Part shown: positions 311-22,707 of the stretch, piece after piece
How the letters are laid out: each line of letters opens with the position of its first letter
Position numbering within the stretch: the stretch's first letter is position 1
Origin: a virus
Length of the DNA stretch: 22,794 nt
Strand: one strand, 5' to 3'
Virus record (IMG/VR): IMGVR_UViG_3300044630_003177
Location: 1-22,794 of that record
The notes under the pieces: generated by a model
Database searches by the model: none
Seen by the model: only the letters and a program-made list of their open reading frames with translations
What the model was told of the DNA's origin: nothing
Program-made: the position numbers and the translations under genes

Positions 311-845
311 TGGCTATGGCGGTCTTGACATGGCCGTGGCTGAGATGACGGGTGGCTCTGTTGCTTGGCATTGTGAATGGGATGATGCGCCTTCTAAAGT
401 TTTGGAAGCCCGCTATCCTGGTGTGCCTAACTATCGGGATGTGTCAAAGGTGGACTGGACTTCGGTTGAGCCTGTAGACATTTTGACTGGTGGTTTTCCT
501 TGTCAGGATCTCTCGCTGGCAGGTAAAAGGGCAGGTTTGAAAGAGGGGACTCGTTCCGGTTTGTGGAGTGAGTTTTTGGCAGCTATTGAATACATAAAAC
601 CGAGATTGGTGGTTATTGAGAATGTTCGTGGAATTTTATCAGCAGAGGCACATAGCGACTTGGAACAATGTTCGTGGTGTATGGGAAACGGATCTGGTGA
701 GCCTTCTTTGCGCGCACTCGGAGCTGTTCTCGGGGACTTGGCCAGCATCGGGTATGACGCAAGATGGACAGGCTTACGAGCTGCAGACGCTGGCGCACCC
801 CATAACCGTTTCAGAGTCTTTATCATCGCCTATCCCCGAAGATAG
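288..845 (+). CDS. DNA (cytosine-5) methyltransferase, catalytic part
   Basis: This 185-residue protein transfers a methyl group from S-adenosylmethionine to C5 of cytosine in DNA. It shows the family motifs in order: motif I SLFSGYGGLD (about 5-14, AdoMet binding), motif IV GGFPCQDLS with the catalytic Cys72, motif VI ENVRG (111-115) and motif VIII GAPHNRFRVFIIA (169-181). Motifs IX-X and the target-recognition region are absent; the frame stops right after motif VIII, about half the usual family length. A motif X-like segment is found in the next frame, which suggests a split enzyme. The ATG at 288 follows GAAAGGG at a good distance. A probable role is protection of phage DNA from host restriction. 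Only the split arrangement makes activity uncertain. Confidence 0.9.
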   Translation: MKIGSLFSGYGGLDMAVAEMTGGSVAWHCEWDDAPSKVLEARYPGVPNYRDVSKVDWTSVEPVDILTGGFPCQDLSLAGKRAGLKEGTRSGLWSEFLAAIEYIKPRLVVIENVRGILSAEAHSDLEQCSWCMGNGSGEPSLRALGAVLGDLASIGYDARWTGLRAADAGAPHNRFRVFIIAYPRR

Positions 846-4527: not shown

Positions 4528-4697
4528 ACCTGAATCGTTGGCGTGAAGCTGGCAAACAAATTGGTCGCAAGATTGGTGTTGTTGAAGAACGCGAACGAAT
4601 CGTAAAACTATTGGAAGATGCAGCGTATCAGGGTGATCCCGACTGGGATGCTTTTGTGCATGACGCTGTGGCACTTATCAAGGGAGAGAACAAGTGA
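4512..4697 (+). CDS. Small charged helical protein with EERERIVKLLE module, 61 aa
   Basis: ATG 4512 is preceded by AAAGGA at nine bases; an earlier in-frame ATG at 4488 would overlap the upstream gene further. The protein is nearly all helical and charged, with VEERERIVKLLEDAA in the centre. A very similar segment, KEERERIIKLLID, occurs in the gene at 5116, so the two may be paralogous. Comparable short EERERI-containing proteins are common in phage genomes but have no known function. The stop overlaps the GTG of the following nucleotidylyltransferase. Confidence 0.65.
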   Translation: MATEVDLNRWREAGKQIGRKIGVVEERERIVKLLEDAAYQGDPDWDAFVHDAVALIKGENK

Positions 4698-5119
4698 GAA
4701 AACTGGTTTTGGTAACAGGTGGGTTTGATCCGTTACACAAAGGTCACATCGCTTATCTTGAAGCGGCCTACAAGCTTGGTGACGGGCTTGTTGTTGGTTT
4801 GAACAGCGATGCCTGGCTCCAGCGCAAAAAAGGCAAACACTTTCTTGACTTTGATGATCGTAAAGCTGTTCTTGACGCTTTATGGATGGTGGATGAAGTG
4901 ATTGCTTTTGACGACTCTGACGATTCCGCTAGGGCAGCTATTCAGTTCTGTTTGGACAATACTGAAGAAGGGGTCATTTTTGCTAACGGTGGTGACCGGA
5001 CTTCGGTGAACATCCCTGAAATGGATGTAATGTCTGATCGTCTTCACTTTGTGTTTGGTGTCGGCGGTCAAGACAAACTAAACAGTTCGTCTTGGATTTT
5101 GGAAAGGTGGAACAAGTGA
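4694..5119 (+). CDS. HxGH-motif nucleotidylyltransferase (cytidylyltransferase-like)
   Basis: This 141-residue protein is a full-length single-domain member of the TagD/HldE-C family, enzymes that join a nucleotide from CTP or ATP to a phosphorylated alcohol, sugar or lipid head group. Evidence is the N-terminal VLVTGGFDPLHKGH (HKGH at 15-18, nucleotide binding), VVGLNSDAWLQRKKG with the expected basic loop, DRKAVLDALWMVDEV, and a C-terminal NSSSWILERW in the position of the family's STT-like motif. GTG start overlaps the previous stop (GTGA). A second member of the same family lies at the window end (22698), next to glycosyltransferases, so both may feed nucleotide-activated precursors to them. 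Substrate cannot be deduced. Confidence 0.85.
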   Translation: MRKLVLVTGGFDPLHKGHIAYLEAAYKLGDGLVVGLNSDAWLQRKKGKHFLDFDDRKAVLDALWMVDEVIAFDDSDDSARAAIQFCLDNTEEGVIFANGGDRTSVNIPEMDVMSDRLHFVFGVGGQDKLNSSSWILERWNK

Positions 5120-7369: not shown

Positions 7370-7548
7370 TGCCTGTTTACGATTACGCCTGTGAGTGTGG
7401 CAACAAGCGCACACAAACGGTCAGCATCCAAGTCAAGGATTTCAAAGCGATCTGTGACTGTGGCAAAGAAATGAAAAGGGTTTATGCGGCCCCGAACATC
7501 AAGTTCAATGGTTCGGGTTTTTACACAACAGATAAGGGAAAGAAATGA
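7369..7548 (+). CDS. FmdB-type zinc-ribbon protein, 59 aa
   Basis: This 59-residue protein starts MPVYDYACECGNKRTQ and continues CDCGKEMKRVYAAPNIKFNGSGFY, the full pattern of the FmdB/CxxC regulatory-type zinc ribbon (MPxYDYxCxxCG, two Cys pairs, then a PxxKFxGxGFYxTD tail). Here the pairs are CxC rather than CxxC. FmdB was named as a putative regulator of formamidase; for phage copies no role is established. Start overlaps the upstream stop (TAATG) and the stop overlaps the next start (ATGA). Confidence 0.85.
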   Translation: MPVYDYACECGNKRTQTVSIQVKDFKAICDCGKEMKRVYAAPNIKFNGSGFYTTDKGKK

Positions 7549-7871
7549 AACGACCGTGGGGCGAATACAAAGTGCTTGGAGAGTATCCGGTATGCGTCAA
7601 GATCATTACAGTCAATGCACATAGCCGACTATCGTTACAAACGCACAAGCTGCGCGACGAGGTTTGGTTAGCTCTGCAACCAGGTCTATACGCTCACATT
7701 GACGAAAATGTTTTCGCTATGGGTGTGCTAGATCGGTTCTATGTTGAGCAAGGTGTCAAGCACCGTATTGAAAACCCTACAGACCAACCGATTCAACTCA
7801 TTGAACTCATGTATGGCGAATACGATGAGGATGACATTTGCCGATTGGAAGACGATTATGGTCGCAACTAA
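7545..7871 (+). CDS. Cupin-type mannose-6-phosphate isomerase (type II PMI domain)
   Basis: The 108 residues match the isomerase domain at the C-terminus of bifunctional ManC/AlgA proteins but stand alone, without the nucleotidyltransferase domain. Landmarks are RPWGEYKVLGEYP, VKIITVNAHSRLSLQTHKLRDEVW (metal ligands probably H34, E39 and later H73), GVKHRIENPTDQP and the closing GEYDEDDICRLEDDYGR, almost invariant in the family. The domain interconverts fructose-6-phosphate and mannose-6-phosphate. It overlaps the next gene, a phosphomannomutase, by 14 bases; the pair would turn fructose-6-phosphate into mannose-1-phosphate, the precursor of GDP-mannose. No GDP-mannose pyrophosphorylase is seen in the window, so that step would be host-supplied. 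Confidence 0.85.
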   Translation: MKRPWGEYKVLGEYPVCVKIITVNAHSRLSLQTHKLRDEVWLALQPGLYAHIDENVFAMGVLDRFYVEQGVKHRIENPTDQPIQLIELMYGEYDEDDICRLEDDYGRN

Positions 7872-8586
7872 ACTGTTCGTCTTTGACCTAGACGATACCC
7901 TCGCCCCATCGAAGCAACCTATTCCGGTTGAGATCCAACACCTTTTGGTTCGTTTGGTTGAAAAGTATCAAGTCGCTATCCTGACTGGCGGGCAGTATCA
8001 GCAAGTGCGTAAGCAAGTGCTTGACCAGCTGCCAGATTCGGTTCGGTCACAAATAAATGTGTTCTCATGCTCGGGATCGCAATACGCTCTCGGTGACGGG
8101 AATGTGCAAACCGATCTGCTACTGCCAGAGGATGCTTCACGCATCAAAGATTTGGTCGAAAAAGTTGCTATCGAATTTGGTTATTGGTGTGACGATCCTG
8201 ATGGCCCGATCATTGAGGATCGGTTGAGTCAAATCACTTTCTCGGCACTTGGTCAGAACGCTTCACCCGAACGCAAATTCGGTTGGGATCGTAACCGTTC
8301 AAAGCGTCAAGCAATGGTTGATCGTTTGGTCAAGCTTGTGCCGGAATACAGTTTCACTATTGGCGGTAGCACGAGCATAGATGTAACGCTGCCTGGTCGC
8401 GACAAGCGGTTCGGTATGGAACGCATCCTTGAGCTGCTTTCGGTTGATCGGTTAGAAACCGTATTTATTGGTGATTCGTTTGAACCTTCTGGCAACGATT
8501 ATCCGGTTCTTGACTGTGGCGTGTTCTGCCTACAAGTGAACCGATGGGAAGATACCGCCGACTTGATGCGATCACTTGGTATCTGA
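7858..8586 (+). CDS. Phosphomannomutase-like HAD hydrolase
   Basis: This 242-residue protein matches the eukaryote-type (HAD) phosphomannomutase in length and motifs: FDLDDTLAPSK (Asp10/Asp12, the phosphorylated nucleophile and acid/base), AILTGGQY, EDRLSQITFSALGQNA, GGSTSIDVTLPGRDKRFGMERIL and FIGDSFEPSGNDYPV (HAD motif IV with Asp206 and Asp214). The enzyme shifts phosphate between C6 and C1 of mannose. ATG 7858 is preceded by GGAAGAC; earlier in-frame starts would lie deep inside the isomerase gene. A sugar-phosphate phosphatase of the same superfamily is the alternative. Pairing with the isomerase upstream argues strongly for mannose metabolism. Confidence 0.85.
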   Translation: MVATKLFVFDLDDTLAPSKQPIPVEIQHLLVRLVEKYQVAILTGGQYQQVRKQVLDQLPDSVRSQINVFSCSGSQYALGDGNVQTDLLLPEDASRIKDLVEKVAIEFGYWCDDPDGPIIEDRLSQITFSALGQNASPERKFGWDRNRSKRQAMVDRLVKLVPEYSFTIGGSTSIDVTLPGRDKRFGMERILELLSVDRLETVFIGDSFEPSGNDYPVLDCGVFCLQVNRWEDTADLMRSLGI

Positions 8587-8915: not shown

Positions 8916-9200
8916 CATTTGGTCAAAATTTGGTCGGCATTTGGTTCGGTCATTTGGTCAAAATTTGGTAGATTTGGTTTAGCCGTCAAACCCATGCATG
9001 TAAACGCCCTGGTTTGGCGGTTTTGCCTTTTGGTTCGGTATTTGGTTCATTTGGTTTGGTTGAACATTTGGTCAAAATTTGGTTTTTTGGTTGATTTGGT
9101 TCGGTCAAGCATTTGGTTCGAATTTGGTCATTTCGTCATTTGGTTGAAATTTGGTTCTTTTGGTTATTTGGTTCGGTTTTGGTTCTTGATCAAATTTGGT
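8916..9200 (+). repeat. TTTGGT array, 22 copies, non-coding
   Basis: TTTGGT occurs 22 times in 285 bases on the + strand and hardly ever as its complement, giving extreme G/T strand asymmetry. A 19-mer CATTTGGTCAAAATTTGGT is present three times exactly (8916-8934, 8951-8969, 9065-9083). Spacing is irregular (about 5 to 12 bases), unlike CRISPR or a simple tandem repeat. It begins one base after the HNH stop codon. An interruption at 8981-9020 contains GCATGTAAACGC, also found before the late genes. Function unknown. Confidence 0.9.
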
Positions 9201-9333
9201 CACTTGGTCAAGCTCCGATAACCGCCCAGGCACGGGGCCGAAACCCCGAAGATTCACCCCGCCGGATCGCGCCCGTATTGCTCTAGCTGCCAACTTGCGG
9301 GGCATGCCCAGGCGGGAGCATGTTTGCGACACG
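9201..9333. other. C-rich spacer, no gene
   Basis: After the array the composition flips to C-rich. It contains CCGCCCAGG (9222-9230), a motif that returns four more times in the other two island spacers, a hairpin CGGGG/CCCCG (around 9233-9248) and a GCGACACGCC block (9326-9335) that is repeated before the second island promoter. I see no coding sequence here. Confidence 0.6.
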
Positions 9334-11503: not shown

Positions 11504-11640
11504 CTTTTGGTTTCGGTTCTTGGTTTCGGTTCTGGTTATTCGGTTCGGTCATTCCGTTCGGTTCTTGGTTTTGGTTTTTGATCAAGGGGATTCGGTTCCG
11601 GCGGGTTCGGTTCTTGGTTCGGTTCTTGGTTCTGGCTTCT
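11504..11640 (+). repeat. Second G/T-rich array (GGTTC repeats), non-coding
   Basis: GGTTC, TCGGT and TTGGT words alternate irregularly through the stretch on the + strand. It shares GGTTTTGGTTnTTGATCAA (TTGATCAA at 11578-11585) and GGTTATTnGGTTCGGT with the 8916-9200 array, so the two arrays look homologous, with this copy shifted toward GGTTC. No gene is supported in it. Confidence 0.82.
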
Positions 11641-13667: not shown

Positions 13668-14117
13668 ATGCCTAATCCACCGAAACCGTTGGAGCAGAAA
13701 CGCTTGACGGGTAATCCTGGTAAACGAGCTTTGCCGAAAGATGGGGCGATTGTGGTGATTGCTCAGGTTGATAATCCTCAGCCGTTGCGACCGTTGCAGG
13801 ATGCGGGGTTGGCCTTTTGGGATGAGGCTTGGGGTAAGGGTCAGTTGTGGTTGGGTCGCACGGATAAGTGGCTTGTGCAGCTGACGGCTGAGATGTTTGA
13901 TGAGCGTGAGGAGTTGCGGGGTATTGTTGCTGACCGGACTGCTGTGGGGGATAAGGATGCTTGGCGTGATCGTAGGCAGTTGCGTGACCTTGAGCGTTCG
14001 ATTGTTGCGAACTTGTCGTTGTTGGCTTGGACTCCTGTGGATCGTTCTCGTTATGGGTTGGCTGAGGTGAAGGCTAAGTCGAAGTTGGCGGAGTTTATGG
14101 AGAAGCATGGCAATTAG
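13668..14117 (+). CDS. terS: Terminase small subunit (P27 family)
   Basis: This 149-residue protein recognises the packaging start on concatemeric phage DNA and hands it to the large subunit. The opening PNPPKPLEQKRLTGNPGKRALPKD is diagnostic of the P27 (HK97-like) small terminase family, followed by LQDAGLAFWDEAWGKG and a long helical region (VQLTAEMFDEREELRGIV, RDRRQLRDLERSIVANLS) ending in RYGLAEVKAKSKLAEFM. ATG 13668 follows GAAGGGAG. The large subunit lies downstream but is separated by an adenine methyltransferase. First gene after the LexA-box cluster; a -10-like TATGCT at 13644-13649 has no convincing -35. Confidence 0.92.
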   Translation: MPNPPKPLEQKRLTGNPGKRALPKDGAIVVIAQVDNPQPLRPLQDAGLAFWDEAWGKGQLWLGRTDKWLVQLTAEMFDEREELRGIVADRTAVGDKDAWRDRRQLRDLERSIVANLSLLAWTPVDRSRYGLAEVKAKSKLAEFMEKHGN

Positions 14118-14679
14118 TAATTTTCCGACTAAAACATATGATGTTATTTACGCTGACCCGCCGTGGCATTTTGGCAGTAAATTCAAAGTTGGGACTGCGG
14201 GCAAAGAACAACAGTCTTTGCAAGAATTTCAGTATCCAACTATGTCTGACTTGGAGCTAAAAACCTTTTTTGAAAATCAAGTAGCAAAGTTGCCTAATGA
14301 AAATGCAGTAATGATCATGTGGACAACTGATGCACATTTGCCTTTAGCCATTGAGTTAGGCCACTTAGCTGGATTTACTTACAAAACCGTTGCCTTTATT
14401 TGGAACAAGAAAACTAGCACAAATAAGCAAGTTTGCTTTATGGGAACTTGGACAATGAAAGGCTCAGAAATTGCTTTATTGTTTACCAAAGGTTCTGCAC
14501 ATAAATTACTCAAAGCCCGTAATGTTAGACAACTTGTTGAAGCAGAAAGAAAAAAACATTCTCAAAAGCCACAAGAAGTAAGAACCCGCATTGAAACAAT
14601 GTTTCCAGATGTGAGCCGTATTGAGTTATTCGCTAGAGATCACTATGAAGGTTGGGATGTCTGGGGTAATGAAATCTAA
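14107..14679 (+). CDS. MT-A70-type adenine-N6 DNA methyltransferase
   Basis: This 190-residue protein has YDVIYADPPWHFGSK near the N-terminus (DPPW catalytic motif, residues about 17-20), then MIMWTTDAHLPLAIELGHLAGF, VAFIWNKK and SRIELFARDHYEGWDVWGNE at the end, all typical of MT-A70-like phage adenine methyltransferases, which transfer methyl from AdoMet to N6 of adenine. The gene is clearly more A/T-rich than the terminase genes on both sides and uses A/T-ending codons. It overlaps terS by 11 bases and terL by 11 bases. Composition and position between the two terminase subunits indicate a recent insertion (moron). A role in escaping restriction is likely. Confidence 0.9.
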   Translation: MAISNFPTKTYDVIYADPPWHFGSKFKVGTAGKEQQSLQEFQYPTMSDLELKTFFENQVAKLPNENAVMIMWTTDAHLPLAIELGHLAGFTYKTVAFIWNKKTSTNKQVCFMGTWTMKGSEIALLFTKGSAHKLLKARNVRQLVEAERKKHSQKPQEVRTRIETMFPDVSRIELFARDHYEGWDVWGNEI

Positions 14680-17677: not shown

Positions 17678-17934
17678 TGCTTTCGACCGGACAAACAACT
17701 GTGGGAACTGTTGCTGTGCAACTTGACGGCACAAGTAACAGCAACTGGCAGATTCACATTTCTAACGATGACAACACCGACACTCTTTACATCGGCAACG
17801 GTGATGTTACTTCCTCTACTGGTTTGCGTCTTTACAAACTTGAAAAACTTGTTTTGAACATGAACCCAGGCGAAACCTTGCATGTCATTTCGACTAAGGC
17901 AGGTCACACTATTAGTTGGATGAAACAGGTCTAA
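17677..17934 (+). CDS. Small beta-rich virion-type protein, 85 aa
   Basis: Starts in the stop of the portal gene (TAATG) and ends in the start of the protease gene. Sequence is almost all beta (TVGTVAVQLDGTSNSNWQIHISN, TDTLYIGNGDVTSSTGLRLYKLEKLVLNM, ETLHVISTKAGHTISWMKQ), a jelly-roll or immunoglobulin-like pattern. Proteins with this YIGNxDVTxxxGxxL signature occur in head modules of many actinophages; decoration or head-completion has been suggested by position only. Function here is inferred. Confidence 0.78.
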   Translation: MLSTGQTTVGTVAVQLDGTSNSNWQIHISNDDNTDTLYIGNGDVTSSTGLRLYKLEKLVLNMNPGETLHVISTKAGHTISWMKQV

Positions 17935-19259
17935 TGCCATACTTTATTACCGATACTGCTGAGGGTTGCTCTGGTTGGGCAACAATCAAAGACGATGGCG
18001 AAGTTATTGGCTGTCACACCACTAAACAGGCCGCTGTAGATCAGATGGTTGCTGTGTCAATCGCTGAAGACATGGAGCCAGGTGGAGAGCGTAGCGAACA
18101 GCGAGCTTTGAATGTCGCCCCGCCCGAATACATGAGAGCTGCAGCTCGCCGTGGTTTGAAGTATTACGAAGAAGGCAAAGGCGGTGCAGGTCTAGTCCCT
18201 GCAACAATCCGCGAAGCCCGTGAGATGGCAGCTGGTCGTGTTTCAGACGATAAATGGGTGCGCCTATCGGCATGGATCGCCCGCCACCTACCAGACCTAG
18301 ATGCCCCTAAAAACAAGAACGCTACCGATCCTGCCTACCCTGGTGCCGGATTGGTCGCTCATCTACTTTGGGGATCAGGGCCAACAAAGCGTCAGGCTCT
18401 TCGCGTCAAAGCATACGCTGACTCAGTTGTTGCTAGGCTAGAAGCAAGTGGTGAAAGAGAAACTATGACTGAAACTAATGAACAGCGCAACAAGTGGCTT
18501 TCGGCTTCTTGGGCGATCAAGGCTCGCATTGAGGGTCTAACACCAGAGGCTCGCTCTGTTGGCAAGTATGAGGTTCGCACTTTGCCTTCAGAGTTTGAGA
18601 TTCGTGACGAGAGCGATGGCATGACCATTAGTGGCTATGCTGCTGTGTTCAACAGCGATAGCGAACCGCTACCGTTCATTGAGCGAATCGCACCTGGTGC
18701 TTTCCAGCGTTCACTAAAGTCCCGTAACGAGATCAAGTTGCTTTGGAATCACGACAGCGGTGAGCCTATGGCTTCGATGCGTGGTGGCAGTCTACGCCTT
18801 TGGGAAGATGACCGTGGCTTGGCTTACGAGGCTACTTTGGCGAACACTACTCGTGGTCGTGATGTTGCCGAACTGATCCGTAGCAAAGTTATTGACGCTA
18901 TGAGCTTTGGCTTCAATGTCATCAAAGACAACTGGGATGAAAGAGGTAATCGCACTTTGGAGTCAGTCAGAATTCACGAAATTTCAGTCGTTAGCTATCC
19001 GGCATATACGGCCACTTCGGGAACTGTGCAGGTTCGCTCGGCTGAAGGATCAGAAGAACAGCCATCGGGCATTGACGCTGAAGCTCTGGCTGACGCTCTG
19101 CTTCGCCTAGAGTCCGGTGAAGAACTAGAAGCCGAACACGCTCAAATCATCAAGGATGTTGTTTCAAAGCTTGAGAAAACTCCAGAGGTTGAGGAAGTAT
19201 CTGGCAACATCCTAGACTTGAAGCAGAAACAACTTGACCTGCTACTGAAGAGAGTGTAA
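17934..19259 (+). CDS. Prohead protease with N-terminal accessory domain
   Basis: This 441-residue protein joins two parts. Residues 1-45 (YFITDTAEGCSGWATIKDDGE, GCHTTKQAAVDQMVAVSIAE) and 62-170 (PPEYMRAAARRGLKYYEEGKG, VSDDKWVRLSAWIARHLPDLD, YPGAGLVAHLLWG) form conserved phage domains of unknown role. Residues 215-370 are the HK97-type serine protease: GYAAVFNSDSEPLPFIERIAPGAF, LLWNHDS (His273), DAMSFGF (Ser324), and VRIHEISVVSYPAY (His348). It cleaves scaffold and the capsid N-terminus during maturation. The C-terminus is acidic and helical. An internal ATG 18465 (codon 178) with GAAAGAG upstream could give the protease alone (264 residues). Confidence 0.9.
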   Translation: MPYFITDTAEGCSGWATIKDDGEVIGCHTTKQAAVDQMVAVSIAEDMEPGGERSEQRALNVAPPEYMRAAARRGLKYYEEGKGGAGLVPATIREAREMAAGRVSDDKWVRLSAWIARHLPDLDAPKNKNATDPAYPGAGLVAHLLWGSGPTKRQALRVKAYADSVVARLEASGERETMTETNEQRNKWLSASWAIKARIEGLTPEARSVGKYEVRTLPSEFEIRDESDGMTISGYAAVFNSDSEPLPFIERIAPGAFQRSLKSRNEIKLLWNHDSGEPMASMRGGSLRLWEDDRGLAYEATLANTTRGRDVAELIRSKVIDAMSFGFNVIKDNWDERGNRTLESVRIHEISVVSYPAYTATSGTVQVRSAEGSEEQPSGIDAEALADALLRLESGEELEAEHAQIIKDVVSKLEKTPEVEEVSGNILDLKQKQLDLLLKRV

Positions 19260-20785: not shown

Positions 20786-20800
20786 AACTTGCCCAAGACT

Positions 20801-20845
20801 GAACACCCCTCAGAGTTGCGTAGGACTCTGGGGGGTGTTCTTTTT
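20801..20845 (+). terminator. Intrinsic terminator after the capsid gene
   Basis: A 16-base-pair stem, GAACACCCCTCAGAGT (20801-20816) with ACTCTGGGGGGTGTTC (20825-20840), one G-U pair, eight-base loop, then TTTTT. One of the strongest terminators in the window. Confidence 0.93.
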
Positions 20846-20881
20846 GCTAGGCTAGAACCACCTACTACGAAAGGTTCTTCA

Positions 20882-22063
20882 ATGTCTAAAAAGGGTGCAG
20901 TAACGGTTTGGTCGAATAGCCCGTATCAGCCAACGGGTTACGGTGTTCAGGCTGGTTATCTTGTTGATCGTCTTGTGCGTGATGGCTATGCGACCGCAGC
21001 TATTTCTAACTATGGTGTTGAGGGTCGCAACACGACTTTAGAAACACCACACGGTGTCATCCCTCACTATGCTCGTGGCTTTGAACCTTACTCTAACGAT
21101 GTAGGGCCAATGAACCACCACCACTTCCTAAGTCAGCACCCTGGTCTAACTGACCTAATGATCACGCTCTACGATGTTTGGGTGTTGAAGGGTGCAGCTT
21201 GGGACAGGATGCGCCGGATCGCCTCATGGACTCCACTAGACCACATCACGATGCCACCAAAGGTTGAGGCGTGGTTGCGTAAACCTAATGTGACACCGAT
21301 CGCTATGTCACCGCATGGTCAGCGTCAAATGCAGGAGAAAGGCATTGACTGTCTTTATGTGCCACACGCTATTGACACGAAAGCGATGAAACCGACTTAC
21401 GAGATCAGCGGTGTGCCTACTCGTCAGTATCTAAGTTTCAACGATGATGACTTTGTGGTTGGCATGGTAGCTGCGAACAAAGCATCTGGACTTGTTCACC
21501 GTAAAGCGTTTAGCGAGAACCTGCTTGCTTTTAGCATCTTTCTAAAAGACCACCCTGATGCCAAGCTTTACCTACACACCGATCCGCTTGGTGCCGCAGG
21601 TGGCTGGAATCTGTTGAAGCTTTGCGAAGCTGTAGGTATTCCTCAAGACTCTGTGCGATTCCCTAACCTTGTTGATTACCGTTACGGTATGGAAACCGAT
21701 CAGGTGGCCGCTTTGATGACGGCTATGGATGTAATGCTTGTCACTTCTTACGGTGAAGGCTTTGGCGTTCCCACGGTTGAGGCCCAGGCAGTCGGAACTC
21801 GTGTCATCGGTTCTAATTGGGCAGCTACCCCTGACCTTGTTGCTGAAGATTGCTTCCTTGTCGAAGGGCAACCAACTTGGGATAGTGGTCAGGATGCTTG
21901 GTGGTCTATTCCGCTTGTGCCATCTATCGTGGATGCTTTGAACAAAGCGTATGACGCACCTAGAGGTCGCTCACAAGTTTGCATTGACTTTGCACAACAG
22001 TTTGATGTTGAGGCTGTTTGGAAAAAGCATTGGATTCCTGCTCTGGATGCGTTGCTTGCATGA
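20882..22063 (+). CDS. Glycosyltransferase, GT4-like (GT-B fold)
   Basis: This 393-residue protein transfers a sugar from an activated donor. The N-terminal half has VWSNSPYQPTGYGVQAGYLVDRL (acceptor-side Rossmann domain), and the C-terminal half the donor site SYGEGFGVPTVEAQAVGTRVIGSNWAATPDLV (about 287-318), the glycine-rich/E-x7-E signature of GT4 enzymes. ATG 20882 follows AAAGG; in-frame sequence upstream overlaps the terminator and is not coding. The gene follows the capsid terminator, so it needs either read-through or a promoter I do not see. The acceptor could be a virion protein, DNA base or host surface; position next to the capsid gene favours virion glycosylation, by inference. 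Confidence 0.85.
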   Translation: MSKKGAVTVWSNSPYQPTGYGVQAGYLVDRLVRDGYATAAISNYGVEGRNTTLETPHGVIPHYARGFEPYSNDVGPMNHHHFLSQHPGLTDLMITLYDVWVLKGAAWDRMRRIASWTPLDHITMPPKVEAWLRKPNVTPIAMSPHGQRQMQEKGIDCLYVPHAIDTKAMKPTYEISGVPTRQYLSFNDDDFVVGMVAANKASGLVHRKAFSENLLAFSIFLKDHPDAKLYLHTDPLGAAGGWNLLKLCEAVGIPQDSVRFPNLVDYRYGMETDQVAALMTAMDVMLVTSYGEGFGVPTVEAQAVGTRVIGSNWAATPDLVAEDCFLVEGQPTWDSGQDAWWSIPLVPSIVDALNKAYDAPRGRSQVCIDFAQQFDVEAVWKKHWIPALDALLA

Positions 22064-22707
22064 TTCCGGTCATCGGCTTTGCAACAGTAAATAGGTTTGA
22101 CCTTGCAGATCGCTTGGTGAAGTCTATTGACTATCCTGTGGAGCATCTCGTCATTATTGACAACTCTGGCACAGGAACATACCTACCACCAGAGAACGAG
22201 AATGTCACCCATGTGTGGGTGTTGCCTATCCCGTTTGGCTTGGGTCTTGTCGGTGCATGGAATCTCATTATCAAGTCCACGCCTTATGCTCCGTATTGGG
22301 TGCTAGTGAACGATGACGCATGGTTTGCACCTGGATCGTTAGAAAAAATCAGTCAGGAAGCTTCGCCTGAAACGATCAGCTTTCCAAGCATTATTCCGCA
22401 TTGGTCTTGTGCAATCTTTGGCGAGCAAGTAGTCGCTAAGGTTGGGCTGTATGACGAGCGTTTCTATCCGCTGTATTTCGATGACAACGACATGGAACGC
22501 CGGATCAAACACGCAGGGTTCGAACCTAAATGGATTGACGCTAAAGTAAACCATGACAACAGTTCAACTTTGAACTCAGGATTTGAGGCAGCTAATGGTC
22601 GCACTTATGGAAAGAATCAAGCTCTTCTTCACAAAAAAACCGAAGAAGAAGATTACTCCGAAGGTGTCTGGAGTTTGCAAGTGCGAAGGGATAACCGATG
22701 GGACTGA
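22060..22707 (+). CDS. Glycosyltransferase, GT2-like (GT-A fold)
   Basis: This 215-residue protein begins IPVIGFATVNRFDLADRLVKSID, a GT2-type start, and has VLVNDDAWFAPGSL (DDA metal/nucleotide site, about 95-100) and LYFDDNDMERRIKHAGFEPKWI, corresponding to the catalytic ED-x-E/acceptor region of small GT2 enzymes. ATG 22060 overlaps the preceding stop (ATGA). It is probably coupled to the GT4-like enzyme and acts in the same route. Its 3' end overlaps the next gene by 10 bases. The tail is basic and charged (KKTEEEDYSEG) and not recognised. Confidence 0.82.
   Translation: MIPVIGFATVNRFDLADRLVKSIDYPVEHLVIIDNSGTGTYLPPENENVTHVWVLPIPFGLGLVGAWNLIIKSTPYAPYWVLVNDDAWFAPGSLEKISQEASPETISFPSIIPHWSCAIFGEQVVAKVGLYDERFYPLYFDDNDMERRIKHAGFEPKWIDAKVNHDNSSTLNSGFEAANGRTYGKNQALLHKKTEEEDYSEGVWSLQVRRDNRWD

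Follow-up and report, generated by a model that had tools for sequence, protein, structure and literature searches.

The cytosine methylase locus of the window, a 22,794-base IMG/VR virus record, very probably encodes one phage C5-cytosine DNA methyltransferase (C5-MTase) in two chains, alpha and an independently started beta. In this model, alpha would carry cofactor binding and catalysis through motifs I-VIII and end directly after motif VIII, while beta, started inside alpha at ATG 622 (in the alpha sequence ENVRG) and read in the +1 frame, would bring target recognition and the closing motifs IX-X, and the chains would have to associate for the full enzyme. The first ~75 residues of beta (W..WET..LFS..S..TWPxSGM..G.AYELPT) would be overprinted on an older part of alpha, the motif VI-VIII region, both readings of the overlap now being kept by selection. 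That beta is translated, that the chains associate and that the enzyme is active we infer from the sequence.

The two predicted chains and their surroundings

All features of the methylase locus given here lie on the plus strand. Alpha (288-845, 185 aa) represents the catalytic half of a C5-MTase, with matches to PF00145 (positions 1-161, E 1.6e-35), phrog_363 (E 7e-68) and NCBIfam dcm (E 3.9e-32), and contains motifs I-VIII in the order typical of PF00145 members. As originally predicted, motif VIII (GAPHNRFRVFIIAYPRR, 792-842) is read in the catalytic frame. It forms the C-terminus of alpha, the stop codon following 17 residues past the first residue of the motif.

The +1 frame is free of stops from 598 to 1734. 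The prediction of a +1 frame open from 616 to 1734 and containing motif X was correct in these respects, but the start is likely ATG 622 and not TTG 616. The resulting beta chain (622-1734, 370 aa) comprises the overprinted N-terminus, a TRD region and motifs IX-X. Over the bases of alpha, the frame reads IATWNNVRGVWETDLVSLLCAHSELFSGTWPASGMTQDGQAYELQTL, in longer form IATWNNVRGVWETDLVSLLCAHSELFSGTWPASGMTQDGQAYEL, with LLPTP-type modules next; within this stretch, beta TWPASGMTQDGQAYEL is overprinted on alpha DLASIGYDARWTGLRAA (736-783). The putative recognition region with its LLRTP/LLPTP modules (847-1455) is assigned from its position and the phrog_1008 match, followed by motif IX (RLAAEFTEWMMGLPAGHVTD, 1564-1626) and motif X (LKLCGNGVVPQQAKLAL, 1654-1704). 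Both motifs were identified by comparison with L231, a relative encoded entirely in one frame, whose PF00145 match spans 1-318 of 324 and whose C-terminus shows 60% identity over 52 aa to the motif IX-X end of beta. Thus, the motifs IX and X expected of a C5-MTase are found in beta.

In a profile search, beta of the window was not recognised by Pfam, and a sequence search against solved structures gave no match. It matches phrog_1008 (E 1.5e-60; DNA methyltransferase, 329 positions) and belongs to this family with its overprinted N-terminus included, although the entry gives no sign that this N-terminus overlaps another methylase gene. The predicted structure of beta is of low confidence (pLDDT 67, pTM 0.41). 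A Foldseek search with this model returned nothing significant, 10 of the 13 weak matches being C5-MTases, and VIA-align 2 listed only C5-MTases, matching weakly over beta 288-370 (Z about 2-3), the part containing motif IX, to the C-terminal part of these enzymes. The overprinted segment was predicted with moderate confidence as short strands and perhaps represents the first strands of the small domain or a docking element.

The stop codon of beta and the start codon of the replication-initiator gene that follows share bases (TAATG, 1732-1736), so that all three genes, alpha, beta and the replication initiator, are probably organised as one operon. A 21-bp repeat (GTCAGGGGTGACAGAATCGGC) is present in 3.7 copies at 2039-2115, inside the replication-initiator gene (1734-2585, phrog_270). 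Because these repeats are iteron-like and lie inside this gene, a replication origin is likely located there, as in lambda O. Further repeats, rich in TTTGGTT / GGTTCGG, are intergenic (9041-9210 and 11507-11632) and give low-complexity chance ORFs on both strands. An MT-A70-type adenine methyltransferase (14107-14679, PF05063, E 3e-17) is encoded directly before the terminase large subunit, bringing the DNA methylases of the phage to at least two kinds. A sugar-metabolism set was also observed, comprising a cytidylyltransferase-like protein, a cupin-like ORF, a phosphomannomutase-like HAD protein, a group 1 glycosyltransferase and a second glycosyltransferase-like ORF (4694-5119, 7545-7871, 7741-8586, 20789-22063 and 22018-22707), of which the cupin-like ORF and the second glycosyltransferase-like ORF were assigned by eye. 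The prohead protease (17916-19259, PF04586) is considerably extended at its N-terminus, by about 220 residues.

Layouts among relatives and known two-chain enzymes

The same +1 register occurs throughout the family, while the distribution of motifs between the chains follows three layouts. In layout (a), that of the window, motifs IX and X are both in beta (54 of 109 family loci). In layout (b), alpha is complete (I-X) and the nested beta, shorter at about 100-300 aa, lacks IX-X; this layout was found in 28 of the 109 family loci and also in the mycobacteriophages DLane and Tweety. Layout (c) was found in distant relatives (Pseudomonas, Acinetobacter, Porphyromonas, Vibrio and an E. coli prophage), in which alpha comprises I-VIII and X without IX, and motif IX (LNPxWVEWLMGxPxGWT) is present only in the +1 frame. 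A strict pattern assigned eight loci to layout (c) (L215, L224, L233, L238, L326, L328, L331 and L332), and visual inspection added Vibrio phage L327, Acinetobacter phage L335, E. coli prophage L336 and Paenibacillus phage L338. Beta covers almost all of alpha in L328 and L335. In E. coli L337, a stop breaks the beta reading, and the record of this locus itself annotates the methylase as a pseudogene. Where relatives contain motif IX in the alpha frame and lack a beta match, their +1 ORFs do not exceed 77 aa. Among actinophage records, 571 beta matches were obtained, a number that partly reflects the conservation of alpha; the double-frame arrangement is also present in phages and prophages of Proteobacteria, Bacteroidota and Firmicutes.

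Since alpha is complete in layout (b) and yet the +1 frame is conserved, beta must do more than supply motifs IX-X. The short beta of these loci, which lacks IX-X next to a complete alpha, could also indicate a nested +1 product that acts as a phage protein in its own right, such as a regulator or an anti-restriction factor, and is joined to the methylase C-terminus only in the split loci. This is improbable, as beta bears motif IX or IX-X in the split and the M.EcoHK31I-like loci, which ties it to the methylase.

Two further types of +1 reading and an extension of the overlap were observed. In L001, L004, L006 and L007, the +1 frame gives LPTPRATDGTKGGPNQRGSSGDLMLPSAV (or a closely similar word) downstream of motif VIII. 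Because alpha reads differently from the same DNA, the overprinting extends into the recognition region in these loci. An unlike second type of +1 ORF lies over motif VIII in L220, L240, L244, L275 and L319, with a word near LSPKACxGILRRA (or LTPRQWxQYLxRL), and is perhaps another overprinted chain bearing motif IX. At the same place, L272, L280, L282 and L338 (Bacteroidota and a Paenibacillus phage) contain the +1 word LTWKxxxTxxxRLxFQLVPS...GLLPT, in which the same overprinted segment is likely preserved in diverged form.

Two-polypeptide C5-MTases are established biochemically, as in M.AquI, in which alpha carries I-VIII and beta IX-X, and in M.EcoHK31I, in which the larger chain carries I-VIII and X and the smaller chain motif IX (PMC3404938). 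The chains of C5-MTases associate in the natural two-chain enzymes, and split M.HhaI and M.SssI also assemble. Compared to M.AquI (CYCGRG), the window shows the same division of motifs, i.e. layout (a); its recognition region lies nearly entirely in beta and its genes share 224 bp in which both frames are conserved, whereas M.AquI was compared by motif layout alone. M.EcoHK31I (YGGCCR) likewise consists of two chains, and its division of motifs is shared by the relatives with layout (c). In the window, however, motif X is in beta and not in alpha, and beta runs far past alpha. The beta gene of M.EcoHK31I reportedly lies inside alpha in a different frame, a feature that recurs in the window as the 224-bp overlap in the +1 frame.

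A protein hidden in another frame of a phage methylase is also described, in passages of PMC11855218, for ShiLan gp65 and other methylases of cluster F mycobacteriophages. The relatives of alpha include cluster F-type phages (DLane, Tweety). According to these passages, the hidden ORF of the ShiLan type is an inserted HNH homing endonuclease, in contrast to beta of the window, a conserved methylase part lying over motifs VI-VIII; an overprinted methylase segment is not mentioned in them. In the open-licence literature, no prior report of overprinted methyltransferase genes was found. Two-polypeptide C5-MTases and the annotation of two adjacent methylase ORFs in actinophages are already known, while the two-frame selection on the overlap, the selected nested start and the spread over several phyla appear to be unreported in that literature.

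Double coding of the overlap

Relatives were gathered in three ways: via beta, via the overprinted segment, and via the N-terminal part of alpha only. The last set involves no selection on beta and hence no bias towards an open +1 frame. For the null expectation of openness, synonymous codons were permuted within each gene, and the +2 frame served as control. Over the overlap (622-845, 224 bp), the +1 frame was open in 32 of 32 non-redundant beta-found loci (5.7 expected) and in 49 of 72 non-redundant alpha-found loci (17.9 expected), statistics that ignore phylogeny and come mostly from actinophage loci. The +2 frame showed no excess openness, being open in 0 of 32 and 4 of 72 of the respective loci. 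In the window, 910 of 1000 permutations with the alpha protein and codon composition fixed gave a stop in the beta frame within the overlap.

Besides being open, the +1 frame encodes a conserved peptide. In the alpha-found loci, the +1 peptide was scored against a profile trained on other loci and compared with 50 synonymous-codon permutations each; the real peptide exceeded all 50 in 46 of the 47 loci scoring above 20 bits, often by a margin of 30-60 bits. For the window, scored with a profile trained without it and without its close kin, the beta N-terminus reached 107 bits compared to a null of 44 +/- 11 (maximum 76) with alpha held fixed. In the reciprocal test with beta held fixed, alpha scored 130 compared to 44 +/- 10. 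Since the real scores exceed the permutation nulls in both directions, both frames are constrained, which bears out the proposal of two meaningful overlapping frames. The double coding is not due to chance, and both frames are under selection.

The null mean of 44 bits amounts to about 40% of the beta N-terminal signal and originates from the conservation of alpha itself. The idea that the TWPxS..AYE word derives in part from a back-translated motif VIII is therefore correct for this portion, while the remainder of the TWPxSGM signal is selection on the second frame. It could be argued that the whole +1 similarity is a mere shadow of the alpha protein and its codon bias and that the true beta starts at ATG 847, past the overlap. 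The 44 of 107 bits retained by permuted sequences indeed mark part of the signal as a by-product, and annotators often place the beta start late (PhluffyCoco 43). Nonetheless, this explanation is very improbable, because the real scores lie above all permutations and synonymous sites are constrained. A shadow of codon bias was rejected by the permutations both ways and by the +2 frame control.

The constraint on synonymous sites was determined from the synonymous diversity of alpha over 109 family loci, in which the positions along alpha are approximate due to long insertions in the alignment. Upstream of ENVRG, the diversity was 0.91-1.00 of expectation, and directly past it about 0.87-0.91. 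In the core of the overlap, it dropped to about 0.3-0.65 and recovered at the overlap end. A single codon illustrates this effect. The Gly codon of the aligned alpha GYD also contributes the Gly of TWPxSGM in the +1 frame; 90 of 92 loci use GGG here, compared to a usage of 10-20% of Gly codons. Together with the infrequently used AGT and AGR codons of the nested start described below, this bias argues against a shadow of alpha.

Because motif VIII is widespread and a long +1 ORF is absent in other C5-MTases, alpha would have come first over the motif VIII region, whereas downstream of motif VIII the order could be reversed. The same observations fit the original idea that an alternative frame of the methylase gave rise to the TWPxS...AYE segment.

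Start of beta, end of alpha and meaning of the arrangement

Most likely, beta starts at ATG 622 (622-624), which is created by the Asn codon AAT (621-623) of alpha ENVRG (618-632) and has an aligned ATG in the close relatives L011-L014 and L016. The only candidate for a ribosome-binding site before this ATG in the window is weak (GGTGG, 608-612, 9 nt upstream). Two nested starts recur in the family. The first is of the window's type, with the Asn of ENVRG written AAT to give an ATG in the +1 frame. The second lies seven codons further on and is nearly always a GTG in the +1 frame given by Ser AGT, often with Arg AGA or AGG directly upstream. In loci with a GC content of at least 60%, the second start was found in 23 of 47, and 21 of these 23 had AGA/AGG upstream, although AGT comprises 2% of Ser codons and AGA+AGG 5% of Arg codons in such loci. 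The association of the second start with the AGR codon was significant (Fisher p 6e-9, loci with GC of at least 50%), and the purine-rich codon may act in a Shine-Dalgarno sequence. The AAT-derived ATG is commoner in loci without the second start (p 0.002), so that the two types tend to exclude each other; loci with neither contain another ATG. The nested beta start codon is under selection.

The alpha stop lies 16-26 aa past motif VIII in 53 of 55 split loci, and no conserved slippery site before the stop is shared among these 55 loci. Independent initiation of beta is supported because nested starts are selected for and alpha ends without a shared slippery sequence. Alternatively, ribosomes might undergo a programmed +1 shift close to the end of alpha and so join motifs I-VIII with the recognition region and IX-X into a single chain. 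This would agree with the overlap of the frames, with their complementary parts and with the end of alpha in the window (TAT CCC CGA AGA TAG), which contains a CCC-C run. Such a fusion is very unlikely, since the last codons and stops of alpha vary freely over the 55 split loci with no common slippery motif, and the nested start codons are selected for. Furthermore, a shift at this point needs no +1 conservation upstream of motif VIII, where conservation is strong, and would lose motif X in the M.EcoHK31I-like relatives. Due to the absence of a slippery site, frameshift fusion was rejected. From the original pair of options, overprinting with a separately started chain is therefore strongly supported, while the +1 frameshift is not supported.

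Relatives with one long frame (DLane gp65, Tweety gp72) might point to an ordinary one-chain methylase whose frame was broken by a frameshift mutation or an assembly error. This is hardly credible, as 54 of 109 non-redundant family loci show the same +1 split and the +1 ORF over the overlap is kept in one-frame relatives; with identical splits in dozens of loci, sequencing error was rejected.

For the locus itself, the two-chain reading with a nested beta means that a one-gene annotation would miss a protein. Long same-strand overlapping genes with both frames selected are rarely documented in dsDNA phages, and this one provides an example, open to direct testing, of a new protein segment that originated by overprinting on an enzyme and later became incorporated into it. 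It could also explain the many annotated methylases without motif IX and the alternation of gene callers between the two frames. There is about an even chance that a hidden overprinted subunit is general in a large branch of phage and prophage C5-MTases, with the recognition domain, or part of it, born out of frame. If so, a recognition domain that arose out of frame over the catalytic gene would have to be a second chain, and many C5-MTases seemingly without motif IX and many orphan 'hypothetical proteins' with TWPxSGM / LLPTP would represent one stretch of DNA read in two frames. Expression of the annotated alpha gene alone may yield an inactive methylase.
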